From positions 186,001 to 250,000 of the forward strand of contig OY101124.1 in assembly GCA_956465555.1 (NCBI GenBank): a stretch of DNA of 64,000 nucleotides, written 5' to 3'. Shown here piece after piece: positions 18,936 to 42,050 of the stretch (its first letter is position 1; each line of letters opens with the position of its first letter). The translations under genes were made by a program, and so were the position numbers. The stretch is from Nitzschia sp. pyKryTriq1 (taxonomy: Eukaryota > Bacillariophyta > Bacillariophyceae > Bacillariales > Bacillariaceae). The notes under the pieces are model-generated. The model worked only from the letters and a program-made list of their open reading frames with translations. It was not told the origin of the DNA and ran no database searches.

Positions 18936-19606
18936 ATGACCAATCCGGCAAGTCGAGATTCTTTCCATTACGCAGTCTTGCATCTGGACGTCTACCAAGG
19001 AAAAAATCCTGCCAATCCAAACGTGGACGCCAGGTGTATATCTATGCCAACGACGCAGAAGGCCGTAGCGAATGCCGTCTATCAAACCAAGCTACATAAT
19101 GACATTGAGTATGGCTACCGCACCATCTCAATGGACAATCGGTACATGTGTCCCGAACTCGCCATCTTTCTTCGCGACAGGTGCAAGATCCTTTCAACTG
19201 GGACTTGTCGCAAGAATCGGATAGGCTGGCCAAAAGACTTAATGACCATGGAGAAGAAGAACGAAGACAGAGGGGAGTCACGTTTCGCCTAGGACAAGGT
19301 AAATGAAGTCCTAGCCATGCAGTGGATGGATAACAAAGTCGTGAACTGCTGTACCACCATTCTCGACACCGACCTTACGGATACGGAACGACGTGTCGGG
19401 GCATTGATCGTCCCGTTAGTTGTCCCACGCCCCCTCAAGACATACCACCAGCACATGTTCGGAGTCGACAAGGGGGACCAAGTCGAATGCACCTCGGTGG
19501 TTTCGCAAGGAAGGCGCACCACAAAAAGTGGTACAAGAAGTCTTATTTTGGAGTCTTGGATTTCATGCTGTTGAACGGTCGAGTGGCGTGGAACCTTTCC
19601 AAATAA
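18936..19606 (+). pseudogene. Decayed piggyBac-like transposase (C-terminal DDE region)
   Basis: One frame reads VLHLDVYQGKN, then YGYRTISMDNRYMCPELAIF and KILSTGTCRKNRIGWPK. These match the piggyBac (DDE_Tnp_1_7) core, including the conserved D in SMDN. A TAG at 19290 interrupts it. The same frame resumes with MQWMDNKVVNCC and PLKTYHQHMFGVDKGDQ (piggyBac W-D-K and GVD-x-DQ motifs). A frameshift near 19490 moves to another frame that reads KAHHKKWYKKSYFGVLDFM and NGRVAWNLSK, then stops at 19604. At least one stop and one frameshift, with the N-terminal half lost, so it cannot make active transposase. Confidence 0.85.
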
Positions 19607-19676
19607 AAATTGCAAATGTCGGAGGGAGGCTCTTATCTGCTCTTATCTCTATTTGTTTTAAGCAGAGATAAGAAAG

Positions 19677-19780
19677 TAGGGGCCTCGAAGGGCCGTGTTT
19701 TAAGACTTCGAGGCCCCTATAGGGGCCTCGGGGGGCCTCGAAAAAACCCCTTCGAGGCCCCTATAGGGGCCTCGAAGGGG
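19677..19780. repeat. Palindrome cluster built on GGGGCCTCGAA
   Basis: Holds a half-unit (TAGGGGCCTCGAAGGG, 19677-19692), a 22-bp perfect palindrome (19709-19730) and a 34-bp perfect palindrome (19747-19780, centre CCCCTA/TAGGGG). All are built from one 17-base arm. TTAA tetranucleotides, the piggyBac target site, occur at 19700 and 19797. It begins about 70 bp after the transposase remnant, so it may be its terminal or subterminal repeat region. Confidence 0.88.
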
Positions 19781-20243
19781 GGCGATCCGATTGGCGTTAA
19801 GATGAAAGAATTATAAAACTTAGCCACTGGAGCGCGATGGTGGGGCCGCTGCCCACACGCGCGTATCTGCGCAGCCTTGGGGGAGAATTTTGGGATTGAA
19901 GGGGCGCCTGACTAGCTAGATTTACAATTATTCTTCTCTACTACTCTACTACTAGCTAGATTTATTAGTACATAGAGTATTATCGACGTGCCACAATAAA
20001 CAACATGATGCCGATCGATGGAATGACGAATGATGAGAAAGATCCTCTACCTACTACGAGTACTAGCTAGCTAGTAGTAGAGCCTCTCTCTACTACTAGT
20101 CGTTTTTAGTTCGAAGGCAACTCACTTATCTCTAGCTACTACTAGTAGAGTAGAGTACTTCTAGTACCGGTACTACTATGCTCGTAGGTTGTAAAAATGA
20201 TGCATATCAATATATAAATCTAAACTTGTATGATGTACTAGTG
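19781..20243. other. 3' flank of the F-box/LRR gene, no gene seen
   Basis: CTAG-rich intergenic DNA (repeated ACTAGCTAG, CTACTACTAG) with one TACCGGTA octamer at 20165. Confidence 0.5.
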
Positions 20244-23171
20244 TTACAGCAGTAATTGTATAGAGTTGCCGTTGCTGCTGCTGTTGCTGCTGCTGCTATT
20301 CTGGTCGTCAAGAAAGGTCGATTGCACCAATTCTAGTACCAATGGTTCCAATTGACAACCTCGTAAATCCACTCGTCGCAATGCTCCTCGCTTATTGTTC
20401 TTATTATTATGTTCCCCCAATGACGCCAACTTCGTCAATCGTTTCATCAAGGGTGCATAGTAGTTGGATCCATTCGCCAACAAAGATACCATTTCTTGAC
20501 AAATCAACGTTTGGAGTTTCGGAGTTTGTTGCAACAGCTTGGCAAGACCGTATCCGGTCAAACGGGATTGTCGGGATAGATCCAAAGAGATTAAGCGGGA
20601 CAATCGAGCGCGAGATGCCCATTGTATCAAAGCTTGATCCGTCAATAAAGATGACGACGACGATGATGCTCGCGATGTTGATGTTGTGATGGGACAGGCG
20701 AGCGACAGCTCGACGAGTTGGCTCCATGCCAAACAAGGACCTAGTTGGTCCCACTGATGATCCGTCCAAAGATGTCCATCCAAGGAAAGTGATCGCAATG
20801 CAATTTCGACATTAACATCACCGTTTGCAGACGCTCCTCCTGCTCCTGCTGCTGTTTGAAAGAGTTTCAATACAGCCAGCGGTGGGACACTGGTCCCTTG
20901 AAGGTTTAATTCTTGGAGTTTGCCCATGTTCGCCGTTATGCTGCTGTGAGCATTGCTGCTGCTCGAAGAAAAGGGCATTCCCAAGCCCCTGTTGTTGTTA
21001 CTACTAGAAAGCAAGGAAGAGACCGAAGGAGGGTTGTTCCGGCGTGGCGACATGCCCGGTGGGCAGAAAAGAGACTGGAGAGAGCTCGCCGGGGTCGGAG
21101 AGTTGTCCCTTGGGGGCGACATTGGGGGTGTGACGGGACGGGCCGGAGACGGTGCCGGAGCGGGGGGTGCAAAAAAATTGGAAAGCACAGAAGCTTGTGG
21201 TGGAAGTGCCGTGGACGTGGTAGCGGTGGCAGGCGGCCCAAACATGCTCGCGAGTCCAGTCAACACCGGTGGCGGTGGTGCTGACGACGACGACGACGAC
21301 GCTGATGGCGGTGGGCCAAACATGTTGAGTAGCATGGAAGGCTTCATGGGCGGTGTGGGTTTTGCTCCAATAGCATTTTCTAGAGAAGAAAGAAGTGGTA
21401 GCTTGTTTTCGGTGACTAGCAGTGTCGCCAGGGGCTCAAGACTGGTAATACCAGTACAACCCTGTAGGTTTAACGCTTCGAGTGATGGGCACTGAGATGC
21501 AATCGAGCGCAAGGACGCACTCGTTAAGAGAGGGCAGTGATTCAGTGCTAGTTTCCGAAGCGAGTTGGACTTGTTTCGGGGTGCAGCAGCAGCACCACCA
21601 CCAGCCGCCCCGGCTTGTTGTGTCATTAACAACAGCACATGAGCATGAGTATCGGTCAAATCTTCAAAGTTGTGCAAGGTAAGTTCTTGTAATGAGGCCA
21701 CACTGGGAAGGTACGAATTTGCAGAGAGACAGTTTTGAATGTCTCGAATCTCCAATCGAATGGGTTGATAACGTTCCAAAACACTTTCCAGTGTCTGTCC
21801 TGTAAGCTCTTGTGCCGAGCGTTTAGCACTACTAGCAGTAGTAGTAGTAGTAGTAGCAGGAGCGCAAGAAGTTGATGCTGATGCTGATGATGATGATGAT
21901 GATACTTGTAGTGATGATTGAAAACTGGCATGGGCGGTTCGTACAAATTCAGTAGCATCCACCGAGTGCCACAACTTCTTGGAGGAATGGACGATGGATC
22001 GGTACCGTTGGGACACCATGCTCACCTTTAACGTCTCGGCAAGGTTCAAAAAGTCCAAGATACCGACCACCGTTTCATCTCGAAGTTTGCTCCAGTGGCA
22101 GTCAATGTTGACTGTGGCGTTCCATAATCCTCGAACTCTTCGTTCGGTGGACGGACGTATTATGGTTTTGCGAGTAGCAGTATTACCATCATAATTCGTT
22201 GACAGCAGTAATAGTTGTTGATGCCGTGGTGCTGGCTTTCTTGTTGTTGAAAACCTTGAGGAGGACTTGAGGCTCGGCTTGATGGCTGGTTTTAACGCAG
22301 ACGAGGGTCGAAGTGGAGCAGTAGCAGTAGCAGTAGCAGCCCCCGCCATGAGACTTGATCTTGGGCAGCTATGACTTGTTGGAGTGTTCATGCTAATACC
22401 ATCAGGGCCTTGTTGTGGTTGTTGTGGTTGTTGTTGTTGTTGTGCTTGTGGTAGTAGGAGCGCATCCCTGTTACTACCGGTATCGTAATCAGTATCAGTA
22501 GTATCCGCTGCATCCATCGAAGACGAAGACGACTCCTCGGTAAAGTCTTCCGAGTAATAGTACTCCCCATCACTTTGACTGGATGCATGATCATTACTGT
22601 CATTATTGTCATTCGTCGTCGTCGAAGATTTTTTTTCTGCTTCTGCAGATTCCGACCGTTCGCTTGGTTCCGCGTTGCTATTACCGGTAATATCGGCAGT
22701 AGGTGATGTGACTACCGGGACTTGTACTGCTACAGAGGAGGAGGAGGAGGAGGAGGGAGATGATTCTGCCAGTAGTAGAGAGGCGCTCGCCACTGTAGCA
22801 GTAGCAGATAAAGAGTGTAGATGAATCATCCTCCTCCCATCCATCATCATCATATTATGATTATCATTGCTGTTGCTACGAGTACCGGAATTATGGAGGA
22901 TCCGTTGGGTACCACTTCTCGGCTCGAAACCCGTGTTATTTTTCTCGCACGACGAATGCTCGTCGTCTTTTAGCGGTAACTTCAAGGCTTGCTCGGCGGC
23001 TGTCGCTGGCTGGATCTTATTGTGACCTCTTCGTATCGTAAAGGAGGGGACGCTATTATTCGTGCAGCTGCTGCTGCTGTTGCTGCTGCTGCTGCATTGA
23101 GTGTTGTTATTATTACTATTATTATTGTTGGTGTTGGTGTTGTTGTGGCTGTGGTTGTTTGTAAACAACAT
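20244..23171 (-). CDS. F-box and leucine-rich-repeat protein with disordered insertions
   Basis: Single exon, 975 residues. The N-terminal 340 residues are disordered (Asn, Ser, Gln, Asp/Glu runs). An F-box-like helix bundle lies at about 359-405: HWSKLRDETVVGILDFLNLAETLKVSMVS, then RYRSIVHSSKKLWHSVD. LRRs of the cysteine-containing F-box type follow: SLQELTLHNFEDL, SLRKLALNHCPLLT and SLEALNLQGCTGI (to about 590), then LQELNLQGTSVPPL and further repeats to about 960. Between the two LRR blocks is a roughly 110-residue Pro/Ser/Ala loop with four copies of an F-x-PP motif (MFGPP, MFGPP, FFAPP, LFCPP). Expected role: substrate receptor of an SCF-type ubiquitin ligase (family knowledge; the F-box is recognised by pattern only). 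An identical copy lies at 28465. Confidence 0.82.
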   Translation of the reverse strand: MLFTNNHSHNNTNTNNNNSNNNNTQCSSSSNSSSSCTNNSVPSFTIRRGHNKIQPATAAEQALKLPLKDDEHSSCEKNNTGFEPRSGTQRILHNSGTRSNSNDNHNMMMMDGRRMIHLHSLSATATVASASLLLAESSPSSSSSSSVAVQVPVVTSPTADITGNSNAEPSERSESAEAEKKSSTTTNDNNDSNDHASSQSDGEYYYSEDFTEESSSSSMDAADTTDTDYDTGSNRDALLLPQAQQQQQPQQPQQGPDGISMNTPTSHSCPRSSLMAGAATATATAPLRPSSALKPAIKPSLKSSSRFSTTRKPAPRHQQLLLLSTNYDGNTATRKTIIRPSTERRVRGLWNATVNIDCHWSKLRDETVVGILDFLNLAETLKVSMVSQRYRSIVHSSKKLWHSVDATEFVRTAHASFQSSLQVSSSSSSASASTSCAPATTTTTTASSAKRSAQELTGQTLESVLERYQPIRLEIRDIQNCLSANSYLPSVASLQELTLHNFEDLTDTHAHVLLLMTQQAGAAGGGAAAAPRNKSNSLRKLALNHCPLLTSASLRSIASQCPSLEALNLQGCTGITSLEPLATLLVTENKLPLLSSLENAIGAKPTPPMKPSMLLNMFGPPPSASSSSSSAPPPPVLTGLASMFGPPATATTSTALPPQASVLSNFFAPPAPAPSPARPVTPPMSPPRDNSPTPASSLQSLFCPPGMSPRRNNPPSVSSLLSSSNNNRGLGMPFSSSSSNAHSSITANMGKLQELNLQGTSVPPLAVLKLFQTAAGAGGASANGDVNVEIALRSLSLDGHLWTDHQWDQLGPCLAWSQLVELSLACPITTSTSRASSSSSSLLTDQALIQWASRARLSRLISLDLSRQSRLTGYGLAKLLQQTPKLQTLICQEMVSLLANGSNYYAPLMKRLTKLASLGEHNNKNNKRGALRRVDLRGCQLEPLVLELVQSTFLDDQNSSSSNSSSNGNSIQLLL

Positions 23172-24285
23172 GGTGACATTGGATTGGTTGATACAAACAA
23201 GTTGTGTTGTGTTGTGTTGTGTTGTGTTAGTTGCGTGCTGCGTCTTCTACGAAATCCGCGTATGTATGGTAAATAATTTATTTTTTTATCCGGCAAGTTC
23301 TCTTGCTTGGTGGTTGTGCGTGTTATGCTCATTGTGGACCGAGCGGAGCGACGGGCGTTCGCTTTTTTATTTGCGACTTCTCGCTTGCATCATCGACAAC
23401 AACCGACGAACGCACCACTACCGACCGCTTCGCTCCGCCGGCCCCGTAAGAACGATCGCTGACGTCAATAATATGCCACCTCCGAAGGAAGGGCTTATGG
23501 GACGACACTGCCAATAGAGATCTACCGGTACTGTAAATAAGCCCGCAATACCGGATAAGTTCCACGTGCGTGAATGAAGAAGGCGAAGGCGGAACTCAGA
23601 GAATTCGTTCGGTCACAAAATCGGAGTCGACAACCAACTACTGCAGAATAACTACTGGCGATGAGCGACGACGACGACGATGGACTGCTCTTGTAGACTA
23701 CTACCTACGATGTACCCTGCTACCGGTAGCCTGGCACGCGTACCGCCCGGTAAGGACATCTAAGAAGGGTAAAGCTCGAGATGCATGTCGAGATCCATCT
23801 CCTCGACTACAAAGACAGTACTACCGGTACTACGGTAGTACTGTCTTTGTAGTTAGTCCTGTACCGGTACGCAGAGACTACTCTACAAATAGATGAGTCG
23901 TCAGTCGTCGTCGCCTGCTGTAAAGATAGTGTAGTAGGCTACTATGATGTGACTACCGGTACCGTAGCTTTCCTGCTGGCTCTTAGTAGAACGGCAAAAG
24001 AAATACTGTACGGTATGGGTACGGATCGTGACTTACGGCAAGTATCACTGAGTCTGAGTTCTGCCTATAGAGCTAGTAGAGTAGATTCTACGTTCTACTG
24101 CTACTCAAGAGAGAGTAGTTGTTCTAATAGCTACTACTAGTAGAGAAAATGTAGATTGGATGTAAAATGGCCGAGTGCTAAATGGGGTTACACTATTCTC
24201 TACACTTGCTGTCGGGATGAGCACATCCAATGTGCTCCCTTGGAAATGTAGTATAGTGCATTAGTGTTGGGGTTCGTTTCGTCAT
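23172..24285. other. Upstream region of F-box/LRR gene, no gene seen, contains a long hairpin
   Basis: The leader next to the start codon has TGTTGTGTTG repeats. It contains five TACCGGTA octamers (23523, 23721, 23822, 23862, 23954) and a 20-bp-stem hairpin. Several short frames exist here but none resembles a known protein. Confidence 0.5.
23807..23852. repeat. Perfect 20-bp inverted repeat with 6-nt loop
   Basis: The left arm CTACAAAGACAGTACTACCG (23807-23826) is perfectly complementary to 23833-23852, with loop GTACTA. Duplicated at 32028-32073 with the large block. Confidence 0.95.
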
Positions 24286-24485: not shown

Positions 24486-24636
24486 TTGACACTACACCAC
24501 CACCGCGCTACGACGGACTCTCAGCAGCACACCAACACTCAAGAAGAACCACAAAAAAACTAACAAACAACGATCGTACTTGCATTACTCTACTACTAGA
24601 GACTAGCTCGCCAACAACAACAACAACAACAACAAC

Positions 24637-25344
24637 ATGAGTCAACAAACAGAGGAAAACAAGACAACTGTAACTGCTTATGGCGGAGAACAAGGAGAGA
24701 AGATCGACCTTCGAAAGGTATTCGATCCGCTCACGGAAAAGGCAGACGAACGCAAGAAACTAGAAGAGCAGTTTAAGCATGTCAAGGGTGTGGTCGTAGA
24801 GAAAGCTGGAGAAGTCCGAAAGAGTATCGTCGAAATGGAGGAAGTTGTCGCTGAGAAAGCTGGAGAAGTCAGAAAGAGTATCGTTGAAATGGAGGAAGTT
24901 GTCGCTGAGAAAGCTGGAGAGCTCAAGTCCACTCTCATTGAAAAGACTGGCAGCTGTCGACGAAGTCTCGGTGAGATCATCGAAAAACATAGTCATCGTG
25001 ATGAAGGAAAACCAGCAGCAGCACACGACGATCATGATGACGATGAACAAGAAGAACAAAAGGAACTGCTGAAGAAGAAGGAAGAGGACGCGGACGTTGT
25101 CGTCAAGGAAAACAAAGTGGAGGCTGCAAAAGAGTGGGTGGTTCACAAAGTCGAAGATTTCGTAGACTTCATTGGAGTTTCTCCCAAAAATATGGAGGGT
25201 TCTACCAAGAAAAGGCTGTCAAAAGATCTCGTAGAAATCATTCCTCCTGGTCTAGACAAGGCGGAAGAAGTGCACGAAGGGCGTGTTCACTTTCAAGAAA
25301 AGGTTGAACAGGCAAGGGATGAAGAGACCGAGAAGCATGAGTAA
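24637..25344 (+). CDS. Hydrophilic repeat-helix protein, identical second copy
   Basis: Residue-identical to the gene at 16416-17123 (235 aa, three 18-residue VVxEKAGE units). Its leader is present only from 24486, because the gap cuts off the upstream region. Likely the same locus represented twice. Confidence 0.7.
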   Translation: MSQQTEENKTTVTAYGGEQGEKIDLRKVFDPLTEKADERKKLEEQFKHVKGVVVEKAGEVRKSIVEMEEVVAEKAGEVRKSIVEMEEVVAEKAGELKSTLIEKTGSCRRSLGEIIEKHSHRDEGKPAAAHDDHDDDEQEEQKELLKKKEEDADVVVKENKVEAAKEWVVHKVEDFVDFIGVSPKNMEGSTKKRLSKDLVEIIPPGLDKAEEVHEGRVHFQEKVEQARDEETEKHE

Positions 25345-25687
25345 GCACCTTGGTCAGTCGTGGTGCTCTCTACTAGTACTTGGATGAGCTCCTACTAGTA
25401 GAAGAAGGATGATAGGACGATGATGATTGCAGACACGAAACAGCGAAATATCTGATTAGGATACTATTCTTCTCCCGAGAAGACTTTCTTACTGCCGCCG
25501 CCCATACTTCTTCGACGACGGCAATAATATGCTGGGGGGACGAAAACTGAATTGCACATTTAATTAACTGATAATTATACATATTACTATTCGAATACTG
25601 AGGAATGATTTTCATTTTTTTGGTTCAAGAGTTTCCTACTACTAGTAGTAGTACCAGAAGGCCGCTATTGTATTTCTTCTTCTTCAT

Positions 25688-26143
25688 CTACATTTGCTCC
25701 TTCACGCAGCAACCCTCCAATGCCTTGATGGTACCAATCTTCTTGCCACAGTTCTGGCAGAAGTGATCCGTTTGTTTCATCGAATCGACAACCAATGGGA
25801 TCCAGCAAAGTGGGAAAAAGACGCACGCAGTTACAGCTACACCCACCCAGGTGAGTGCACTTGGATACGTTCGAGTCGACGTTCGTACGTGTGACTTTTT
25901 GCACTGTGGGCACATTGACAGTTGTACCGGGCGTCGGCTGCCACTAAACATAACATCTTGATGGCCCGGGGCGTAGGGACTTCCTGGATGTGGCTCATAT
26001 TCATCCAAAATGACGGTGACGGCATGGGATCCAACCGTGACTCCTTGCACGTAAGGTTCCGCCGACGAGGATGAAGAGCCAGCGGGAATCGCCGTGGGAA
26101 CCGAAGAATAGCTGATATCAGATTTTGTCATGATGATGATCAA
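25688..26143 (-). CDS. LITAF-like zinc ribbon protein, identical second copy
   Basis: Residue-identical to 17467-17922, with intact CPQC and HFCQNC half-sites around the hydrophobic segment. Probably one gene represented twice by unmerged contigs. Confidence 0.88.
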   Translation of the reverse strand: MIIIMTKSDISYSSVPTAIPAGSSSSSAEPYVQGVTVGSHAVTVILDEYEPHPGSPYAPGHQDVMFSGSRRPVQLSMCPQCKKSHVRTSTRTYPSALTWVGVAVTACVFFPLCWIPLVVDSMKQTDHFCQNCGKKIGTIKALEGCCVKEQM

Positions 26144-27156
26144 AGAGGGATACGTGGGTGTTCAGTCTTATTGCTGTTATCTGCTGACTTTGTCTGTGTC
26201 GTCGCTAATGTTGATTTTGTGAGATTTGGCTTTTCTTCGGTAGTTGATGGATGATGCGTTTTGTGTTTATTCGTGAGGGGATCGTGACGAAGGCCTTGGA
26301 ACTCGCACTCCACTGCGCACGACTTGCATGCTCGTAAATAAGTAACAGCACAGATGCCCAATGATGAAAGAAGCGTGACTGAACAGTCTGCAGTCTGCAC
26401 GTCTGCACGTCTACGACCCTGCTTCTCTTTTTACTCCGGCCGGTCGTGCCTGCGGCGCTCGCGTCGGTACCTTGTATGTACCGCCGGTACTGGTACATTA
26501 TTGGGAAAATAATGTTACGAAAGTAACAGGTTCCCTTGGGGAGACAGCAAAAGCCTCGCTGGACAGATAAGTGTCGAATCGCTTTGCATGCGCTTCATCA
26601 TAGTAGAGGAGCCGTCCTTGGACCTTAACAGAGAAGTCTTCGGGGAAAGTAACAACACACTCTCACTTTTCCATCGAGCCGATCGAGGCGAGAGGGGTGG
26701 TTCGAGAAAAGAAACAGCATCACCGGTGGGCTGATCGCTGTTCTGATACATGTAACAACTTGTTCTCTGTTGTTCGTTTGTTGTGAACCACGAGTTCGTA
26801 GAATTACTTCGAAGGAAATCAGGCCGTCGTCGCACAAGGGCTGGCGGGTCCCTCCTTTCTTCTTCTCAATCGCGTGGAGCTTTCGCCCTGCATTTTGGCA
26901 GGCGTCCGCTCAATCTACCCCGATCCAGACGAGCAATACATGGGCCACTACGAGAGCTAAATTTGTCGCGAACATCGAAATCCCGTCTTGTTTGATGTCT
27001 TACGAAGCGTAGAGCATTTATGGGACACTTGTTCTCTACTTTATTCGATCCTAGTAAATGGATAACATATAAAAAATTCATGATGGAATCTCTATTGATT
27101 ATTCTTGTTCATTTTAGATTGCTGATTCAAGAATTCCAGCACCGTGAGATTCCAAA

Positions 27157-27827
27157 ATGACCAATCCGGCAAGTCGAGATTCTTTCCATTACGCAGTCTT
27201 GCATCTGGACGTCTACCAAGGAAAAAATCCTGCCAATCCAAACGTGGACGCCAGGTGTATATCTATGCCAACGACGCAGAAGGCCGTAGCGAATGCCGTC
27301 TATCAAACCAAGCTACATAATGACATTGAGTATGGCTACCGCACCATCTCAATGGACAATCGGTACATGTGTCCCGAACTCGCCATCTTTCTTCGCGACA
27401 GGTGCAAGATCCTTTCAACTGGGACTTGTCGCAAGAATCGGATAGGCTGGCCAAAAGACTTAATGACCATGGAGAAGAAGAACGAAGACAGAGGGGAGTC
27501 ACGTTTCGCCTAGGACAAGGTAAATGAAGTCCTAGCCATGCAGTGGATGGATAACAAAGTCGTGAACTGCTGTACCACCATTCTCGACACCGACCTTACG
27601 GATACGGAACGACGTGTCGGGGCATTGATCGTCCCGTTAGTTGTCCCACGCCCCCTCAAGACATACCACCAGCACATGTTCGGAGTCGACAAGGGGGACC
27701 AAGTCGAATGCACCTCGGTGGTTTCGCAAGGAAGGCGCACCACAAAAAGTGGTACAAGAAGTCTTATTTTGGAGTCTTGGATTTCATGCTGTTGAACGGT
27801 CGAGTGGCGTGGAACCTTTCCAAATAA
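27157..27827 (+). pseudogene. Decayed piggyBac-like transposase, second copy
   Basis: Carries the same TAG interruption and the same downstream frameshift as 18936-19606. Sharing every lesion shows that the block was duplicated, or assembled twice, after the decay. Confidence 0.84.
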
Positions 27828-27897
27828 AAATTGCAAATGTCGGAGGGAGGCTCTTATCTGCTCTTATCTCTATTTGTTTTAAGCAGAGATAAGAAAG

Positions 27898-28001
27898 TAG
27901 GGGCCTCGAAGGGCCGTGTTTTAAGACTTCGAGGCCCCTATAGGGGCCTCGGGGGGCCTCGAAAAAACCCCTTCGAGGCCCCTATAGGGGCCTCGAAGGG
28001 G
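27898..28001. repeat. GGGGCCTCGAA palindrome cluster, second copy
   Basis: Identical to 19677-19780, including the 34-bp perfect palindrome (27968-28001). Confidence 0.88.
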
Positions 28002-28464
28002 GGCGATCCGATTGGCGTTAAGATGAAAGAATTATAAAACTTAGCCACTGGAGCGCGATGGTGGGGCCGCTGCCCACACGCGCGTATCTGCGCAGCCTTG
28101 GGGGAGAATTTTGGGATTGAAGGGGCGCCTGACTAGCTAGATTTACAATTATTCTTCTCTACTACTCTACTACTAGCTAGATTTATTAGTACATAGAGTA
28201 TTATCGACGTGCCACAATAAACAACATGATGCCGATCGATGGAATGACGAATGATGAGAAAGATCCTCTACCTACTACGAGTACTAGCTAGCTAGTAGTA
28301 GAGCCTCTCTCTACTACTAGTCGTTTTTAGTTCGAAGGCAACTCACTTATCTCTAGCTACTACTAGTAGAGTAGAGTACTTCTAGTACCGGTACTACTAT
28401 GCTCGTAGGTTGTAAAAATGATGCATATCAATATATAAATCTAAACTTGTATGATGTACTAGTG

Positions 28465-31392
28465 TTACAGCAGTAATTGTATAGAGTTGCCGTTGCTGCT
28501 GCTGTTGCTGCTGCTGCTATTCTGGTCGTCAAGAAAGGTCGATTGCACCAATTCTAGTACCAATGGTTCCAATTGACAACCTCGTAAATCCACTCGTCGC
28601 AATGCTCCTCGCTTATTGTTCTTATTATTATGTTCCCCCAATGACGCCAACTTCGTCAATCGTTTCATCAAGGGTGCATAGTAGTTGGATCCATTCGCCA
28701 ACAAAGATACCATTTCTTGACAAATCAACGTTTGGAGTTTCGGAGTTTGTTGCAACAGCTTGGCAAGACCGTATCCGGTCAAACGGGATTGTCGGGATAG
28801 ATCCAAAGAGATTAAGCGGGACAATCGAGCGCGAGATGCCCATTGTATCAAAGCTTGATCCGTCAATAAAGATGACGACGACGATGATGCTCGCGATGTT
28901 GATGTTGTGATGGGACAGGCGAGCGACAGCTCGACGAGTTGGCTCCATGCCAAACAAGGACCTAGTTGGTCCCACTGATGATCCGTCCAAAGATGTCCAT
29001 CCAAGGAAAGTGATCGCAATGCAATTTCGACATTAACATCACCGTTTGCAGACGCTCCTCCTGCTCCTGCTGCTGTTTGAAAGAGTTTCAATACAGCCAG
29101 CGGTGGGACACTGGTCCCTTGAAGGTTTAATTCTTGGAGTTTGCCCATGTTCGCCGTTATGCTGCTGTGAGCATTGCTGCTGCTCGAAGAAAAGGGCATT
29201 CCCAAGCCCCTGTTGTTGTTACTACTAGAAAGCAAGGAAGAGACCGAAGGAGGGTTGTTCCGGCGTGGCGACATGCCCGGTGGGCAGAAAAGAGACTGGA
29301 GAGAGCTCGCCGGGGTCGGAGAGTTGTCCCTTGGGGGCGACATTGGGGGTGTGACGGGACGGGCCGGAGACGGTGCCGGAGCGGGGGGTGCAAAAAAATT
29401 GGAAAGCACAGAAGCTTGTGGTGGAAGTGCCGTGGACGTGGTAGCGGTGGCAGGCGGCCCAAACATGCTCGCGAGTCCAGTCAACACCGGTGGCGGTGGT
29501 GCTGACGACGACGACGACGACGCTGATGGCGGTGGGCCAAACATGTTGAGTAGCATGGAAGGCTTCATGGGCGGTGTGGGTTTTGCTCCAATAGCATTTT
29601 CTAGAGAAGAAAGAAGTGGTAGCTTGTTTTCGGTGACTAGCAGTGTCGCCAGGGGCTCAAGACTGGTAATACCAGTACAACCCTGTAGGTTTAACGCTTC
29701 GAGTGATGGGCACTGAGATGCAATCGAGCGCAAGGACGCACTCGTTAAGAGAGGGCAGTGATTCAGTGCTAGTTTCCGAAGCGAGTTGGACTTGTTTCGG
29801 GGTGCAGCAGCAGCACCACCACCAGCCGCCCCGGCTTGTTGTGTCATTAACAACAGCACATGAGCATGAGTATCGGTCAAATCTTCAAAGTTGTGCAAGG
29901 TAAGTTCTTGTAATGAGGCCACACTGGGAAGGTACGAATTTGCAGAGAGACAGTTTTGAATGTCTCGAATCTCCAATCGAATGGGTTGATAACGTTCCAA
30001 AACACTTTCCAGTGTCTGTCCTGTAAGCTCTTGTGCCGAGCGTTTAGCACTACTAGCAGTAGTAGTAGTAGTAGTAGCAGGAGCGCAAGAAGTTGATGCT
30101 GATGCTGATGATGATGATGATGATACTTGTAGTGATGATTGAAAACTGGCATGGGCGGTTCGTACAAATTCAGTAGCATCCACCGAGTGCCACAACTTCT
30201 TGGAGGAATGGACGATGGATCGGTACCGTTGGGACACCATGCTCACCTTTAACGTCTCGGCAAGGTTCAAAAAGTCCAAGATACCGACCACCGTTTCATC
30301 TCGAAGTTTGCTCCAGTGGCAGTCAATGTTGACTGTGGCGTTCCATAATCCTCGAACTCTTCGTTCGGTGGACGGACGTATTATGGTTTTGCGAGTAGCA
30401 GTATTACCATCATAATTCGTTGACAGCAGTAATAGTTGTTGATGCCGTGGTGCTGGCTTTCTTGTTGTTGAAAACCTTGAGGAGGACTTGAGGCTCGGCT
30501 TGATGGCTGGTTTTAACGCAGACGAGGGTCGAAGTGGAGCAGTAGCAGTAGCAGTAGCAGCCCCCGCCATGAGACTTGATCTTGGGCAGCTATGACTTGT
30601 TGGAGTGTTCATGCTAATACCATCAGGGCCTTGTTGTGGTTGTTGTGGTTGTTGTTGTTGTTGTGCTTGTGGTAGTAGGAGCGCATCCCTGTTACTACCG
30701 GTATCGTAATCAGTATCAGTAGTATCCGCTGCATCCATCGAAGACGAAGACGACTCCTCGGTAAAGTCTTCCGAGTAATAGTACTCCCCATCACTTTGAC
30801 TGGATGCATGATCATTACTGTCATTATTGTCATTCGTCGTCGTCGAAGATTTTTTTTCTGCTTCTGCAGATTCCGACCGTTCGCTTGGTTCCGCGTTGCT
30901 ATTACCGGTAATATCGGCAGTAGGTGATGTGACTACCGGGACTTGTACTGCTACAGAGGAGGAGGAGGAGGAGGAGGGAGATGATTCTGCCAGTAGTAGA
31001 GAGGCGCTCGCCACTGTAGCAGTAGCAGATAAAGAGTGTAGATGAATCATCCTCCTCCCATCCATCATCATCATATTATGATTATCATTGCTGTTGCTAC
31101 GAGTACCGGAATTATGGAGGATCCGTTGGGTACCACTTCTCGGCTCGAAACCCGTGTTATTTTTCTCGCACGACGAATGCTCGTCGTCTTTTAGCGGTAA
31201 CTTCAAGGCTTGCTCGGCGGCTGTCGCTGGCTGGATCTTATTGTGACCTCTTCGTATCGTAAAGGAGGGGACGCTATTATTCGTGCAGCTGCTGCTGCTG
31301 TTGCTGCTGCTGCTGCATTGAGTGTTGTTATTATTACTATTATTATTGTTGGTGTTGGTGTTGTTGTGGCTGTGGTTGTTTGTAAACAACAT
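28465..31392 (-). CDS. F-box/LRR protein, identical second copy
   Basis: Residue-identical to the 975-aa product of 20244-23171, including all homopolymer tracts (poly-Asn, poly-Ser, poly-Gln). Such tracts normally diverge fastest between real duplicates, which favours an assembly redundancy. Confidence 0.8.
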   Translation of the reverse strand: MLFTNNHSHNNTNTNNNNSNNNNTQCSSSSNSSSSCTNNSVPSFTIRRGHNKIQPATAAEQALKLPLKDDEHSSCEKNNTGFEPRSGTQRILHNSGTRSNSNDNHNMMMMDGRRMIHLHSLSATATVASASLLLAESSPSSSSSSSVAVQVPVVTSPTADITGNSNAEPSERSESAEAEKKSSTTTNDNNDSNDHASSQSDGEYYYSEDFTEESSSSSMDAADTTDTDYDTGSNRDALLLPQAQQQQQPQQPQQGPDGISMNTPTSHSCPRSSLMAGAATATATAPLRPSSALKPAIKPSLKSSSRFSTTRKPAPRHQQLLLLSTNYDGNTATRKTIIRPSTERRVRGLWNATVNIDCHWSKLRDETVVGILDFLNLAETLKVSMVSQRYRSIVHSSKKLWHSVDATEFVRTAHASFQSSLQVSSSSSSASASTSCAPATTTTTTASSAKRSAQELTGQTLESVLERYQPIRLEIRDIQNCLSANSYLPSVASLQELTLHNFEDLTDTHAHVLLLMTQQAGAAGGGAAAAPRNKSNSLRKLALNHCPLLTSASLRSIASQCPSLEALNLQGCTGITSLEPLATLLVTENKLPLLSSLENAIGAKPTPPMKPSMLLNMFGPPPSASSSSSSAPPPPVLTGLASMFGPPATATTSTALPPQASVLSNFFAPPAPAPSPARPVTPPMSPPRDNSPTPASSLQSLFCPPGMSPRRNNPPSVSSLLSSSNNNRGLGMPFSSSSSNAHSSITANMGKLQELNLQGTSVPPLAVLKLFQTAAGAGGASANGDVNVEIALRSLSLDGHLWTDHQWDQLGPCLAWSQLVELSLACPITTSTSRASSSSSSLLTDQALIQWASRARLSRLISLDLSRQSRLTGYGLAKLLQQTPKLQTLICQEMVSLLANGSNYYAPLMKRLTKLASLGEHNNKNNKRGALRRVDLRGCQLEPLVLELVQSTFLDDQNSSSSNSSSNGNSIQLLL

Positions 31393-32027
31393 GGTGACAT
31401 TGGATTGGTTGATACAAACAAGTTGTGTTGTGTTGTGTTGTGTTGTGTTAGTTGCGTGCTGCGTCTTCTACGAAATCCGCGTATGTATGGTAAATAATTT
31501 ATTTTTTTATCCGGCAAGTTCTCTTGCTTGGTGGTTGTGCGTGTTATGCTCATTGTGGACCGAGCGGAGCGACGGGCGTTCGCTTTTTTATTTGCGACTT
31601 CTCGCTTGCATCATCGACAACAACCGACGAACGCACCACTACCGACCGCTTCGCTCCGCCGGCCCCGTAAGAACGATCGCTGACGTCAATAATATGCCAC
31701 CTCCGAAGGAAGGGCTTATGGGACGACACTGCCAATAGAGATCTACCGGTACTGTAAATAAGCCCGCAATACCGGATAAGTTCCACGTGCGTGAATGAAG
31801 AAGGCGAAGGCGGAACTCAGAGAATTCGTTCGGTCACAAAATCGGAGTCGACAACCAACTACTGCAGAATAACTACTGGCGATGAGCGACGACGACGACG
31901 ATGGACTGCTCTTGTAGACTACTACCTACGATGTACCCTGCTACCGGTAGCCTGGCACGCGTACCGCCCGGTAAGGACATCTAAGAAGGGTAAAGCTCGA
32001 GATGCATGTCGAGATCCATCTCCTCGA

Positions 32028-32073
32028 CTACAAAGACAGTACTACCGGTACTACGGTAGTACTGTCTTTGTAG
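32028..32073. repeat. 20-bp-stem hairpin, second copy
   Basis: Same inverted repeat and loop as 23807-23852. Confidence 0.95.
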
Positions 32074-32553
32074 TTAGTCCTGTACCGGTACGCAGAGACT
32101 ACTCTACAAATAGATGAGTCGTCAGTCGTCGTCGCCTGCTGTAAAGATAGTGTAGTAGGCTACTATGATGTGACTACCGGTACCGTAGCTTTCCTGCTGG
32201 CTCTTAGTAGAACGGCAAAAGAAATACTGTACGGTATGGGTACGGATCGTGACTTACGGCAAGTATCACTGAGTCTGAGTTCTGCCTATAGAGCTAGTAG
32301 AGTAGATTCTACGTTCTACTGCTACTCAAGAGAGAGTAGTTGTTCTAATAGCTACTACTAGTAGAGAAAATGTAGATTGGATGTAAAATGGCCGAGTGCT
32401 AAATGGGGTTACACTATTCTCTACACTTGCTGTCGGGATGAGCACATCCAATGTGCTCCCTTGGAAATGTAGTATAGTGCATTAGTGTTGGGGTTCGTTT
32501 CGTCATGATTATGATGAGCGTTTGGTCTCGCATCCTCCTCCTTGCTTCATTCA

Positions 32554-35500
32554 TCAAGCGTGTTGTTTTCGAAAGGTTCGGAGTTTTCGGAGACTGCCAC
32601 CAAAGCTTCGCCCGGATCGTACCGAATCATTGCTGCTACGGCGACCTTGGGTTTCATCCGTGGCAGTCACCGATCTGCGTTTGACGCCATTCTCGCGATT
32701 CTCGAGGCTTTCCGAAGAGTTGCTCTGTTTCACTTCAGGGAGATCAGCAAAGGCGTTAAAATGATGGGGCTGGTTATGACCGTTGCTGCTTTTGGGGCCG
32801 GAATGCCGGTTTCCAGAGTTGGTCGATCGGGAGTGGTTGCTGGCAGGCGTAGACGCCATAGTGTTGGTGGGAGAGGTACGATCTCCCTCTCCACTGCCAC
32901 CCACATTTTCATTGGTAAAGAACGGGTGTTCCAACACGTGTCGCATCGAGCTGATACGCTTGCTAGGATCGTGGTGCAAGAGGCGCTTGAGCAAATCACG
33001 TGCCAAGGCGTTGTCGGGCACATGTCTCAAGGCCTTGCGAAGAGTTGCTTCGTCCCAAAGGCCAATCTTGCAAACCTCACTGGCGCTCATGGCACGCTTT
33101 CCACGGCATGCATAAGGTCCTAAAGGCACGCCAGCCATGGATTCGTATAGCACAACACCATATGCCCAGATGTCGTAGGTGGTATGAGCGGGAATCGAAA
33201 TCACGCTAGCGGCAAAGCTCTTCTTTGGGATTGGGTTGCGCTTGTTTTCCACAATGATCGCCTCAGGAGGGTGGTAGAATCCACGGTTGGGGTCCGTCGG
33301 TCGACCCAACGGAACGCTGCCTCCCACTCCCAGCAACTTCCATCGGCTACCGAACTTGCCAATGTTGTGCGTACCAAAGTCTCCATGAATGATTCCATGC
33401 TCGTGCATGTGCAACAACGAGATACCAATTCTCTTGAGTGCCTTTTCTGGAAAGGGTTTTCCATGTCTACGCATGTCAAGCATGAGATTCTCGGCTGTCG
33501 TATCGGCCCCTTCCATGGTAATACAATAGCCAGGTTCTGCCATAGCTTCCGAGTAAGCTGCATGCTGCACAGTATGGTGCACGCTGATAATGGCGGGAAC
33601 ATAGTGCCTTGACAAATGGAAATCCTTTCGGACTTTGAGTTCACGCTCGACGATCTCGGAGCGAGATGTCAACTTAGCAATGACTTGCTGACCCTTCTCG
33701 CGGCGAATATGACGCAGCTTGTCTTCAATGCTTTGTTGGGATCGGCTCGTCAACGTCGAGCGAATACTGGTCTTCGAGATGTGAGAAGCATCATCCCACT
33801 CTTCAATGTAGTCGTCTGCCCCATCATTCTTTTCTTCGTGAAGAACAGTGAAGGCACCGCTGGACTGAGGAGGCGGATCGTATCGAAGTGCGTAGAAAAT
33901 CTGAGTATCGCTGATCGGGTTGGTATAGGCCGGGCGTTGATTCACCACTTCGAGCGTGTTGAACAATCGAAGCATGACCCGCATTTCGTGCTTGCAGACT
34001 GGTGTGGCAGCTGCAAGGGCAATCTTTCCATCCGGGCCCTCGATATGCGCCAAAGCCAAGACTTGGGGCTGTGTACAAGATTGCAAGACCTTGGTAACAA
34101 CTTGATGGTACATGTCCTCCGTATTGGCGACTATGTGATTCCAGGAGTAGTGGTGAGGCGACAATTGGGCTCGGACCTTCTCCTTGGTATCGATTGGCAT
34201 GTCGCGCTTCAGCAAGTTGTGCACAATGAAATGGGAATGTTCATTCTCTGTTGCGACTTGAATGGGAAGCATACCCGTCGCCTTGTCCACTTGAGTCGCA
34301 AGGCTAGGAGCATGGTTCAAGAGTCCCATGATCGTGCGGTCGTCCGCATGGTGCTTGAACGCCAGATGAAGAGCACTGTGACCATCGCCATTGAAGATGC
34401 CAGCGGCCTCTGGATACTGCGTCAAGAGCGAGGTGATCACCGACGAAGTGCACTGGAACTTGATGGCCGTATGCAACGGCAAATCACCGTTCATGTCTGT
34501 TCGAGACAAACCACCGGCAAAGCAGGTCAGCAACGTCTTGACCACGACAGGATCCACCACTTCGCCACATCGAAGCAACAAATGCAACGGCAAATCCCCA
34601 TTCTCGTCTGCACGCTTGGCCGAGGCAAAATTCTCGGCCAGCAAAGCCGTGATCACACCAATCGAGGCATGGTTGCGGCATGCAATGTGCAGAGGGAGTC
34701 CTCCCCCCGAGTTGTGAGGTGGCCGGTAGACCATGGTATAGGCTCCCTCGGGAGACTGTGTCAACAAAAACTTAATCGCGTCGACGGCATCGTAGTTGGC
34801 GGCCACGTGAATTGGTAGACGGCCCATCTTGTCGGTATCATTGATGCCTTCCTTGTAGGCGCTGTATACAATTTCCAAAGCCGAAAGATTGTCATGAGCC
34901 GCGGCGTGATGAATCGGGAGGGCACCCATATTATCTCGGTGAATGAGACCCTTGGGGTACAAGACCAAAACCATATCGATCAAAAGGGTCCAGGCTCCTC
35001 CATGACGAGCAATCTTGTGAAGAGCCAGCTCTCCCGTCTTGAGATCAGGTTGTTCAGAAAGTTCAGGGTGACGATCCAAAATGTTCTCGACCATGGCCCA
35101 GTTCTCTTCTTGAATCTCGTGAAAGAGTTCGGCCAATTGGGCCGTGTCGACATATTGGGTGACCTCCCGCGAAGGCGCGGGAACCACCTGGCGCTCTCGA
35201 ACAGGAGGGATGGTAGGTCGTTTGATGGGTGATTGAACATGCTTGAGAGAAACAGGAGAAGGTTCGCTGACCATGCTGGAGAGCAGATCGGTGCGTGCCT
35301 TGGATCCTCGGTACATAGCTTGAACTTGAGTGACTGCCTGGAGGACCTCTTCTTCCGAGGGTCCAGGTGGAGTTCGGTTTCCGTACTTGTACTCTCGGTA
35401 GGCACGTTGAATAATCATAGCCGCTGTACGACGCGCCAGCTGCAGCTCAAAGACATACATGCGCGAGCAGAAGAGACGCCAGGCACATTGGATGGTGAGA

Positions 35501-38500
35501 GCCGCCTTGTGGATGCGAGTGAAAAAGGCCTTGTTTCGCGAGAGTCGAATGCGCATGCAGCATTGAATGACAATTGCGCAACGTCGCATGTGCTGATAGT
35601 ATTGGCGCCACATCCTTCCACGGACAATCTTTTGAATGGCTGCCGCGGCATTGAAAAACTTTTCCGAGCGCAAGCCTTCAATGCGGTCAAAGGCTTCGCG
35701 ACGCAAAAAGACNNNNNNNNNNNNNNNNNNNNNNNNNNNNNNNNNNNNNNNNNNNNNNNNNNNNNNNNNNNNNNNNNNNNNNNNNNNNNNNNNNNNNNNN
35801 NNNNNNNNNNNNNNNNNNNNNNNNNNNNNNNNNNNNNNNNNNNNNNNNNNNNNNNNNNNNNNNNNNNNNNNNNNNNNNNNNNNNNNNNNNNNNNNNNNNN
35901 NNNNNNNNNNNNCTTGGTTCGTCCCAACTGTAGACCCGCCACGGCACATCGCGAGGCAAAGTCCAGCGACAAGAACTCTTGTCGCGATTCAGGGCGAGCC
36001 ACCTTATGGTCCTTTTTGTTATCCGCCTTGGACTTTTTCTTGTTTCGTTGGAACTCGGGAGTCATGACGGAGCTCTCGACTACCAGATTGTAGGGAATGT
36101 GGGCAGCACCATGTCCCGTGTGCATTTTGGGAACGGCGGTCGCATGAGGCTTGGTTTGAACGACGGCATAAGACGCGACGGATTCTCGATGCTTGCGTTC
36201 CAATTCCAATTGGTTCTGCATAATGCGGTGATCAATCTCCCACAAATCCTGAGCAATCTTTCCAATAAGGCGCTTGAGCCCGGCTTCCTTTTCTCCGGCG
36301 CTTCGACCGGGAGAGAAGAGAGGGGACATGGGTGATCGATCCTTCTGGTCACCGAGGATGTAGTAGCGCGCCGAAAAGATGTCATGTGGGTATCGAGTAG
36401 GGTAGCCAGCGCGACTGACGCGGACCGCCTCCAAGACACCTCCACATCGAAGTTGCTCCACAATGTTCTTGGGTTCAAAATAGTCGGCAATCAACTCATC
36501 ATTGGGCTTGAGGCACCGAATGTAGTGTGGAATAGTAGTCTCGATACGAGAACGGAGGATGCGCAGTTGAGACGAGAACTGGGATGAGACCGACTTGGTA
36601 GCGACGGTACCGCGTCCACCACGGTCTTCGCTTCGAATGAATCTATTGATATCCAGCAAGAGATCAAAGTCAGAAGACTTGAGCAGATCCGAAGAAGCGG
36701 CAGGAAGTTGATCCTTGTTCTTTTCCAGCCACCCATCCGTGGTATACTCGACAAGTCCCGCATAGTGTTCAATGCTAAACAAATAGTCGACACGTTGAGC
36801 CGAAGTGGCACTGAATCTAGGATGAGCATCGCATCTGGCGTAGAGATAGCGAGTAAACTTTTGATCCGTACTGCGTGGCAGGATACATTGTTCGTCCAAT
36901 AGAGCCATGATTCCCGTGTGTTTCATGTCGATCAAATCCAGGACGTCTTGATTGTCCGGGAAAGAAATGAATTTCCACATGATTCCTTCTTTTTCATATT
37001 CTTGCTGCTCGAGCTTGAATACATATCGATTGAATTGTTGTTGGAGTGCCTCGTTGGTATAGTTGATACAAATTTGTTCAAAGCTGTTAATCTCAAAGGT
37101 CTCAAATCCAAAGATATCCAAAACACCAATCGACGCGACCCCACTGCCTTGTCCCTTGGTGTTGTCGTCAATCGAGTTATTGACTCGTTCCACAATAAAG
37201 TCAAAGGTCGCTCCGTAGACTGCCTTGATGAGTGCCTCGCAAGCCTTCCCGGACTCTTCAATAGTAAGAGGCTTATCGACTGTTTCGTCCGCCGCAATGA
37301 TGGATCGAGACGTCAAAGCCTTGGCAAGGCCTTCAAACGTAATACCGAGCAATGCCGCACAGGCCAATGCAGGTTTGGTCTTGTCTAGTTTGCAAGAGTC
37401 TCCGTCTTGAGAAGGAGTAAAGCTCATGTTTCCAGCAAAAAGGATGGAGCACACAATTCGCATGAGAGATTGAATGGTTTCGGGAGAGAATCCAATGGTA
37501 GCCTGTTGGAGGAAAGAGTGGTGAGAAGAATGTTTATGCCTGGACAGTATCATTTTCCCTGATGACTTGAAAGATTCTTACCATGGCTTCCAACATTTCA
37601 AAGTGGTTCTCTTCATCCGAGACTCCATCTCTTCGATCATAGGTTCCCGAGTCGCTCAACAAACGAAAGTCTCGAGCCGTCTTGTTGCTGATGAAAAAGT
37701 CTTGACGTTCTCTAGCGGACGCCGCCTTGAGGAACTGATAAAAGACGTGATAATTTCGTTCTCCCGGACTGGGATGAATCAATCGGACCTTTTCCAACAG
37801 ATAGGTCTCGATAGAAGCGCCAGAAAGCTTTCCCGACTTGGTAAAGCTAATGTCAATATACTTTCCGAAACGAGAAGAGTTGTCATTTCGAATGGTGCGA
37901 GCGTTTCCAAAGGCTTCCAGAATGGGATTCGATTGCAGGACTTGCTGTTCAATCGAAACATCAATATCGGGGCGTTTGGTCGGGGATCGTCCTTGCTCTT
38001 CTGCTGCTCGCTTCTTGGAAAGCATGGCAAAGTAGTTGAGCACGATCTTGGTGGTGACCGTCTTTCCAGCGCCTGATTCTCCCGATACCAAGATACTTTG
38101 ATTGGTCGGGGCGCCCTTCATGGCTAGAACACCAGGTGCGGGCTTGCCCATGAGTGCCTTGTTTTCCAGGCCACGAAGCATTTGTCGATAGGCATCGTCC
38201 GCTGTTTGGTAGACGTGTGGTGCGAGTCGAGCGCTCGGAGCTTGTTTGGCACGTCTTCCACCCTTGAAAGGAGTGGAGAACTGTTCCTCTTGGCTGCTAC
38301 TGTTGGACGAGCCCACGCCTTGCTCCCCTTGCAGTCGGTACCGCTCCATGGTTTCGCTCGAGTAGAGATCCATCGGCTTGAAGGGGTTGACGGCAATCAA
38401 AATGGGCCCCGTGGCCGTGTAGATGATATCGGCATCGTACCGCAGGCGAAGCGCATGCAGAATGGCAGGTTCGTGCAAGTGCGTCAACCCAATCAAGTCG

Positions 38501-38907
38501 TCCACGCCGCCCACCACCGAAGCTTCCACGTGCGTGCTCGGACTGCACAAGACCCCCGCTTCCGGATCCTCGCCGCTGACTTGAAAGGAAGTGGGAAGGT
38601 TGCGGAGCTTGATATCCTCGTGATCGGCCGTCTTGAGTTGCTCCGGGTCTACTTGCACAATGACTTCAAAGTCGTCTTCTTCCGAAAAGTACTGCGAGCC
38701 CGAGCGCTTCACAATACCCTTACGGTTGGTCGTCGTCGTCATCGTCGCCTCGCGATTCGTTCCTTCCACCGACTGGTCCTTGCGCAACGTCAAGTGAATT
38801 CGCTCTTGTCCGCCCACCAGGACATCTTCTTTGCGGTAAATCACGGCGGGGACCCAACCCCAGTGGGACGACTCGCGTCGCAACCACACGGGGGCATTGA
38901 CTTCCAT
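32554..38907 (-). CDS. Unconventional myosin: motor, IQ motifs, ankyrin repeats, C-terminal pseudokinase
   Basis: Exons 38907-37582, 37502-35913 and 35712-32554. The intron is 79 bp (GTAAGA donor, CTCCAACAG acceptor, phase 0), and the 200-N gap 35713-35912 separates the last two segments. Both gap edges are in phase 0 and read QLGRTK then VFLRREAF, the normal myosin converter sequence, so I treat the gap as empty; 2,024 residues result. Motor: P-loop GESGAGKT (276-283), switch I NDNSSRFGKY (341-350), switch II DIFGFE (571-576), with a Ser/Gln-rich insertion at about 195-225. About five IQ-like motifs (996-1112) should bind calmodulin-type light chains. Ankyrin repeats (G-x-LPLH-x-A type) cover about 1198-1477. 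The kinase-like domain, about 1645-1900, has K1652, an alpha-C Glu (E1661 or E1663), HGDFGTHN (D1750, N1755), HPPEA and YDIWAYG, but GVG (1767-1769) where DFG is expected. A Ser/Asn-rich basic tail follows. Actin-based motor scaffolding a signalling module; cargo unknown. Confidence 0.93.
35713..35912. other. Assembly gap (200 N), gap 2, inside the myosin gene
   Basis: The reading frames on each side abut exactly at a codon boundary and together give the conserved G-R-T-K-V-F-L-R myosin segment, so little or no sequence is missing. 200 is not a multiple of 3, so automatic translation breaks the gene here. Confidence 0.9.
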
Positions 38908-40926: not shown

Positions 40927-42050
40927 TTATTTCAAAAGCGATTCCAGCGTTTCAAGGGTTACACCCGTCGATGGGTCATCTCCAAGTTCTTCCACAATCA
41001 TATCCGCGCCGGTAAAGTCTTCGCCAGCAGTGTAGCTGCTCTTGGTCACGATACAGGAAATGCCCGCCGCCTTGGCGGCTCCTAGGCCAATATGAGAATC
41101 TTCTACAATCACGCATTTGGACTTGTCCAGTCCCATGGTATCGACCGCCAACAAATACACATCCGGGGCGGGTTTCTTCTTGGCGACCATATCCCCTGCA
41201 AATATTTGGAATTTGGCCGCCCGGTCGGGTCCCATGAGCGTCGCCACTAGATTCCGAACTGCCAATTCGTTACTCGTCGAGCAGACTGCCAATCGAAGCC
41301 CCGCCGCAATCGCATCGTCAATGACTCGCAATACTCCCGGTCGTAATGGGACTCCTCCCTCTTTGATCATATCCATGAATATATCCGTCTTTCGCAAATG
41401 CAATTCCTTGACTTTTTGCTTCCGTTCCTCGTCGTTCGCCATTGGAAATCCTTCCGGCCATCCCACTTCATTCCAATGTGCCGTCATTCGTTCTTTGCCT
41501 CCACCGACTTCCAAAAGCTTGCCGTATCGCTCCACGTCCCATACCGTATTCAATCGGCTCTGTTCAAAGGCCTGATTGAAGGCTGGTCGATGAGCATCTC
41601 GTTCCGTATCTGCCAAGACTCCGTCCATGTCCCAGAGAATCGCTTCGAGTTTGCTCATAGTAATACCACTGCTGCCACTACTAGTAGTAGCCTGCAGTTG
41701 AACTACTCCTAGTAGCGTCCTGCTGATGGTGCTGCAATTGTGGTAGTCATGTCGACGAAATGATAACGTTAGTAGCGTTATGTTATTTTTGTAGACGGCA
41801 GAAAGTAGCCACAGACCAAAACGATGACGAAGAAGGGACACCCTTACCGATGATGATGATGATGCTGTTGGTGCTGTTGACGGCCCACCCCCAAAAATAA
41901 TGTCGCATCCTCCCTGCCAGCATTACTATTCTTTCTGGTATTACTAGTACCGGGGGAGGAAAATGCGGCTGCGGCACCCACCACCACACAGAGAATAGTA
42001 CCCACCACAATAGCAGCACTAGCAGTAGTCTTCGATTGCTGCCACCACAT
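40927..42050 (-). CDS. cbbY: Plastid-targeted CbbY-type HAD phosphatase, 2 exons
   Basis: Exon 1 is 42050-41848 and exon 2 is 41731-40927. The intron (116 bp) has a GTAAGG donor, a TACTAAC branch point and an ATTGCAG acceptor. The phase-2 junction is restored exactly, giving 335 residues. Exon 1 encodes a signal peptide ending GAAAAF|SSPG (Phe30), a diatom ASAFAP-type plastid motif, then a basic transit-like stretch. Exon 2 is a full HAD enzyme: DMDGVLAD (Asp102/Asp104), GGGKERMTA, LRPGV, CSTSNE, KKKPAPDVY, VEDSHIG and CIVTKSSYT, closely matching CbbY. Plant and bacterial CbbY dephosphorylates xylulose-1,5-bisphosphate, a misfire inhibitor of Rubisco (established), so a stromal Rubisco-maintenance role is inferred. 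Without the intron, the second exon alone appears to start at 41841 with a spurious N-terminus. Confidence 0.92.

Follow-up and report, generated by a model that had tools for sequence, protein, structure and literature searches.

Class III myosins of metazoans carry an N-terminal kinase, whose phosphorylation targets are the motor, the light chains or the cargo. In the oomycete class XXXIV, one IQ motif is followed by a short coiled coil, five ankyrin repeats and a FYVE domain (PMC2375034); in class XXXI, blocks of ankyrin repeats flank a PH domain and the number of IQ motifs varies (PMC2375034, PMC3942036). The gliding candidates of the raphid diatom Craspedostauros, CaMyo51A-D, are described as having tails of 276-417 residues with a predicted coiled coil and no additional domains, in a report according to which no diatom myosin had been functionally characterized up to then (PMC11420354). 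Outside the myosins, ankyrin repeats precede a kinase fold in ILK, an actin-linked scaffold tied to adhesion sites, whose kinase status was long disputed and whose kinase fold is most probably a pseudokinase (PMC8799556), as well as in PITG_06288 from Phytophthora, in which 15 ankyrin repeats stand ahead of a TKL kinase (PMC3019232).

The window analysed here is a stretch of 64,000 nucleotides from Nitzschia sp. pyKryTriq1 (assembly GCA_956465555.1, contig OY101124.1, positions 186,001-250,000 of the forward strand). Its minus strand contains, at 38907-32554, a locus that joins a myosin motor with five IQ motifs to about eight ankyrin repeats; a linker then leads to a protein-kinase fold, and the chain ends in a basic tail. 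The reading that we favour, with a probability of roughly 0.6, is that of a single unconventional diatom myosin, whose tail of ankyrin repeats, linker and pseudokinase, arranged in the domain order of ILK, would serve as a scaffold and not as an active kinase phosphorylating the motor. If conserved across diatoms, this architecture might represent a new myosin class in which the cargo adaptor is covalently built in.

Gene model and reading frame

The predicted protein comprises 2,024 residues, provided that the assembly gap within the motor hides no coding sequence, and its features are collected in Table 1. The P-loop (GESGAGKT) and switch I (NDNSSRFGK) are found in exon 1, and a long insert lies in exon 2 ahead of the converter end; Myosin_head was matched on both motor exons in the Pfam listing, which covered matches with E <= 1. 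The P-loop, switch I and switch II are all intact, as in the myosin superfamily, and the IQ lever arm lies directly behind the converter, the IQ cores beginning at residue 26 of the last exon. A pattern scan of this exon returned seven IQ-like cores, five of which were accepted as IQ motifs by judgement, and seven ankyrin cores, to which an eighth repeat was added by eye; Ank_2 matched seven stretches at E <= 1 and four at E <= 0.01.

Table 1. Features of the predicted myosin gene, with positions in the window
Feature	Position	Strand	Remarks
Exon 1	37582..38907	-	Start codon at 38907, N-terminal region and first motor part; 442 codons
Predicted 79-bp intron	37503..37581	-	GT-AG, GTAAG...CAG; unspliced reading has an in-frame stop
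Exon 2	35913..37502	-	Remaining motor, switch II DIFGFE; 530 codons; Myosin_head E 2.1e-115
Assembly gap, 200 N, within motor	35713..35912	.	Flanks in frame, LQLGRTK / VFLRREAF
Last exon	32554..35712	-	Open for exactly 1,052 codons, then TGA
Five IQ motifs (lever arm)	35269..35649	-	Pfam IQ E 2.5e-6 and motif positions
About eight ankyrin repeats	34243..35139	-	Pfam Ank_2 E 2.9e-24
Linker, common to the tail and its motor-less paralogue L028	33913..34242	-	Alignments
Protein-kinase fold, probable pseudokinase	32917..33708	-	Pfam Pkinase E 3.6e-12, alignments
Ser/Thr-rich basic C-terminal tail	32557..32916	-	pI 12.0 over the last 48 residues
TGA stop codon closing the 3' exon	32554..32556	-	Sequence read directly

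The chance of 1,052 open codons in random sequence of the same composition is about 1e-19. A codon-usage score trained on the open frames of the nine other myosins of the genome was computed over 17 blocks of 60 codons (codons 1-1020); the true frame was positive and the two other sense frames were negative in 17 of the 17 blocks. The best antisense frame scored above the true frame in a single block (0.182 versus 0.109, codons 421-480), and negative values were obtained in every minus-strand frame of the three flanking controls, a pair of which overlaps. Two in-frame intron-like stretches that overlap each other, 35386-35276 and 35386-35267, came out of a search restricted to a narrow donor pattern; the splicing of either would remove IQ5 and leave the predicted fusion intact.

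The sequence-only reading had claimed a continuous frame from the converter through the IQ motifs and ankyrin repeats to the kinase fold, without a stop over 1,052 codons after the gap, which is confirmed by the open reading frame, the Pfam domains and the coding score. Its wider claim, that one predicted gene joins a myosin motor to IQ motifs, ankyrin repeats and, at the C-terminus, a kinase fold, is borne out by the Pfam matches, the coding signal and the alignment across the gap, and the profile search that it had proposed returned Myosin_head, IQ, Ank_2 and Pkinase in the order that it gave.

The motor among described myosins

A genome-wide myosin search returned at least 17 matching pieces, which were assigned to at least ten genes. 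In a motor tree of ten myosins of this genome (715 columns, without an outgroup, the long branches L032 and L036 being flagged), the window motor forms one clade with L029 and L030 (99/97), within which the latter two are sisters (99/97), and five myosins called coiled-coil from their sequence cluster separately from these three. Among the myosins found in the genome, the closest kin of the window motor are thus an IQ-ankyrin-FYVE myosin (L029) and a short-tailed one (L030). L029 (G000:C2:2111000-2120900, plus strand) has IQ motifs and C-terminal ankyrin repeats, and beyond one stop codon the following open frame gives a FYVE match; this frame is probably spliced to the same gene, and the order would then be that given for the oomycete class XXXIV (PMC2375034).

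Two further observations concern the myosin set. In L032 (G000:C2:2146000-2155900, minus strand), a myosin open reading frame is followed 35 bases on by one of at least 1,819 residues with 13 CBS-domain stretches, and a CBS-tailed myosin has been described for class XXIX (PMC2375034). L034 and L035 (G000:C16:808947-819787) are myosin open reading frames arranged head to head at a distance of about 4.3 kb; they are mutually closest in the tree (68% identity, 100/100) and represent a local duplication.

The window gene resembles class XXXIV as described in being a stramenopile myosin with IQ motifs and then C-terminal ankyrin repeats (PMC2375034), but membership was rejected, as the 1,052-residue tail has no FYVE match at E <= 1 and ends in a kinase fold instead. 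Like class III, it combines a myosin motor with a kinase fold in a single polypeptide; this class was likewise rejected, there being no kinase match at E <= 1 in exon 1 and the kinase fold being C-terminal, behind the ankyrin repeats, and probably inactive. Myosin XVI also combines a motor with eight ankyrin repeats, but differs in that its repeats are N-terminal and that the cited text makes no mention of a kinase fold (PMC7464383); the ankyrin matches of the window gene are confined to the C-terminal exon, and class XVI was rejected on that account. Class XXXI was set aside as no PH domain was matched at E <= 1 (Pfam), and the number of IQ motifs, being variable within that class as described, was not used to decide. 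Like the class 51 proteins it is an unconventional myosin of a diatom and has IQ motifs, but membership was rejected on account of the ankyrin and kinase folds in the tail.

The order of domains had been regarded as unfamiliar. This holds in so far as no myosin with the order motor-IQ-ankyrin-kinase is named in the titles, abstract beginnings and passages among those listed in the literature searched (figures excluded), a scope that does not amount to absence from print. It does not hold for the C-terminal position of the kinase: protein-kinase domains and ankyrin repeats have been described at the one or the other end of the myosin chain, so that there are precedents both for the parts and for a kinase at the C-terminus (PMC2375034). 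A relevance to diatom motility had also been suggested, and for gliding this link is unsupported, because the published candidates belong to class 51 and have short tails with predicted coiled coils, described as being without additional domains, unlike the tail found here (PMC11420354). On its own, this myosin would not explain gliding.

The kinase fold and the proposed working of the tail

The Pkinase match spans residues 669-932 of the last exon. The VIAK lysine, the HGD aspartate and the catalytic-loop asparagine are kept (VIAK and HGDFGTHN, tail residues 677-783), whereas alignment with the paralogue L028, where the D is kept, shows GVG in place of DFG (tail residues 795-797); in the corresponding columns L028 reads VILK, HGN and DVM. 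No glycine-rich loop was seen by eye in a region where the Pfam match begins at profile position 19 and the structure models are very poor, and an acidic insert of about 54 residues lies ahead of beta3 relative to L028. Because DFG reads GVG and no glycine loop was seen by eye, the C-terminal kinase fold is quite likely to be a pseudokinase.

A search of solved structures with the pair returned 210 sequences, the best 60 of which are CAMK2, RSK and Aurora kinases; among these best 60 of 210 the match is strongest over the C-lobe, the catalytic loop scores are weak and no ILK chain appears. The corresponding single-sequence search returned 118, the best 60 of which are ULK3, RSK and Aurora chains. 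Single-sequence AlphaFold2 models of the ankyrin-kinase tail (766 residues) and of the linker-kinase part (381 residues) reached mean pLDDT values of 36.2 and 32.5, respectively, too low to support an N-lobe fold.

The foremost alternative, which we consider unlikely, is that the fold at the C-terminus is catalytically active, perhaps in an atypical way, and phosphorylates the motor, the light chains or the cargo, in the manner of class III. The Pkinase match does extend to the profile end, and the retained lysine and catalytic-loop aspartate and asparagine make weak or metal-independent activity possible; CASK, which lacks the DFG aspartate, reportedly still phosphorylates without magnesium. 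Set against this are the GVG in place of DFG, the glycine-rich loop that was not seen by eye, the acidic insert before beta3 that L028 lacks, and the degeneration of L028 itself at other catalytic positions (HGN, DVM). A kinase that is probably dead or atypical points to a scaffold rather than a signalling enzyme, so that of the proposed coupling of an actin motor to a signalling scaffold the scaffold is retained, in the form of the ankyrin-pseudokinase tail, and the signalling enzyme is not.

In the working that we propose, an ATP-driven motor would act through a five-IQ lever arm binding calmodulin-like light chains, possibly with calcium tuning via the IQ motifs, and the ankyrin repeats and pseudokinase would bind partner proteins. 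The motor could then pull or tether the bound complex along actin, with the tail acting as an adaptor scaffold rather than as a kinase phosphorylating the motor; the basic, serine-rich C-terminal end may attach to membrane or be under the control of phosphorylation. ILK, likened here by domain order only, would offer a parallel in working and not in membership, its ankyrin repeats being followed by what is most probably a pseudokinase (PMC8799556), and differs in being a free-standing animal protein without a motor. It is a tentative extension of this parallel that an ILK-like adhesion or membrane adaptor might be built into the motor, having evolved in diatoms by fusion with a resident ankyrin-pseudokinase gene, which would unite force generation and scaffold assembly in a single polypeptide. 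Little has been established about which cargoes diatom myosins carry; a covalent ankyrin-pseudokinase adaptor would give direct access to this question, with the motor-less L028 as a natural control.

Origin of the tail and assembly around the gene

Within the genome (40.65 Mb, 20 contigs), the linker-kinase query found one other locus with both parts among the matches listed, L028 (C10:1096006-1097248), situated on the same contig as the window gene at a distance of about 0.87 Mb. The tail matched it at E 2.4e-16 (kinase part) and 3.2e-4 (linker part), and the reverse search from L028 returned the window tail at 5.6e-24 and 2.0e-16 together with several weaker ankyrin-only matches; each is the other's sole partner for linker and kinase among the matches listed. 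At least seven weaker kinase-only loci were matched by the linker-kinase query (E 0.0016-0.0098). Pairwise blastp between the window tail and L028 gave 5e-28 and 5e-22, values obtained with a one-sequence database and composition correction off. With two short introns (68 and 70 bp) removed, L028 and the tail run co-linearly, starting at the first ankyrin cap and continuing to the kinase end, and this homology over ankyrin repeats, linker and kinase places the two in a shared family. L028 does not stand out by its ankyrin repeats alone: the ankyrin block scores z 31 against L028, but three of the ten other ankyrin loci compared (L044, L045 and L048) reach z 27-29, the remaining seven giving z 2-22, and hence the specific link to L028 is carried by the linker and kinase.

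The long region that precedes the ankyrin repeats of L028 has no Pfam match and is broken by an assembly gap, and on this contig the genome-wide myosin search matched nothing besides the window's own gene, so that no motor was found at L028. The gap in this N-terminal region (G000:C10:1101472-1101671, 200 N) has the same few residues on both sides, which suggests an untrimmed contig overlap. L028 shares with stramenopile ankyrin-kinases such as PITG_06288, likened from its description, ankyrin repeats N-terminal to a kinase domain (PMC3019232), and both differ from the window gene, PITG_06288 having no myosin motor and L028 none that was detected.

Being co-linear with the motor-less L028, the tail has the appearance of a resident module that was added to a myosin. 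We infer, the direction included, that a myosin gene became fused to a gene of the ankyrin-linker-pseudokinase family, which suggests that myosin tails can change by the gain of a complete resident two-domain module. A different history, in which the ankyrin repeats were inherited from an ankyrin-tailed ancestor shared with L029 and the kinase alone was added later, would agree with the common clade of the window motor, L029 and L030 and with the C-terminal ankyrin repeats of L029. It is nevertheless improbable: L029 is sister to L030, in whose three scanned open frames Pfam found no ankyrin match, the window ankyrins are far nearer to those of L028 than to those of L029 (z 31 versus 8), and the match to L028 continues through the linker and kinase. 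As L030 has no ankyrin match there and the window ankyrins resemble L028 and not L029, independent gain of the two ankyrin tails is favoured from these comparisons. In viral contigs, none of the pattern hits to the tail query (2), the linker-kinase alignment (31) or the motor alignment (83) was confirmed as a relative by tblastn, nor was any of the 69 hits to the linker-kinase alignment in prokaryote genome contigs.

The fusion of motor and tail in one gene is read across an assembly gap. At the join of its flanks no alignment column is missing, and all ten aligned motor rows (the window and the nine other myosins of the genome) cross it continuously; therefore, no coding sequence has apparently been lost, and an intron could be concealed in the gap. 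A second irregularity is an 8,021-bp stretch that occurs twice with 100% identity, at 16265-24285 and 24486-32506, on either side of another 200-N gap. Most simply, two contigs probably overlap here without having been trimmed, in which case the tail exon would sit on a short contig of its own (24486-35712) flanked by two larger ones; an exact duplication of recent date is the alternative. The duplicate concerns the assembly around the gene and leaves the tail exon unaffected, the stop codon of this exon ending 47 bases past the duplicate. Two adjacent genes, a myosin ending past the IQ motifs and an ankyrin-kinase gene, merged by a missing start or stop or by mis-scaffolding, might be suspected from the gap within the gene, the perfect duplicate at another gap nearby and the existence elsewhere of an ankyrin-kinase gene without a detected motor (L028), but this is very improbable, since the gap sits in the motor and not between IQ and ankyrin, its join is exact within a conserved motor motif, and the IQ motifs, ankyrin repeats and kinase all lie on one side of it in a single coding exon, open from IQ1 to the stop, which argues against two genes. 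A scaffolding artefact joining the motor to a foreign tail was likewise rejected.

Some observations concern the surroundings of the gene. An open reading frame of 1,000 residues with weak LRR and F-box matches occurs at 20244-23246 and again at 28465-31467, and is likely to be a single gene counted twice, as the duplicate is probably an untrimmed overlap. The genome holds eight silicon-transporter matches above the family cut-off, five of them on one contig within about 240 kb (G000:C1:79892-317295); one of 14 control genomes was matched, below the cut-off. Together with the myosin set, including the CBS-tailed myosin, as in class XXIX, these transporter matches fit a diatom. Adjoining the myosin gene is an open reading frame for a HAD-family hydrolase (40927-41922, minus strand; PF00702, E 9.1e-22).
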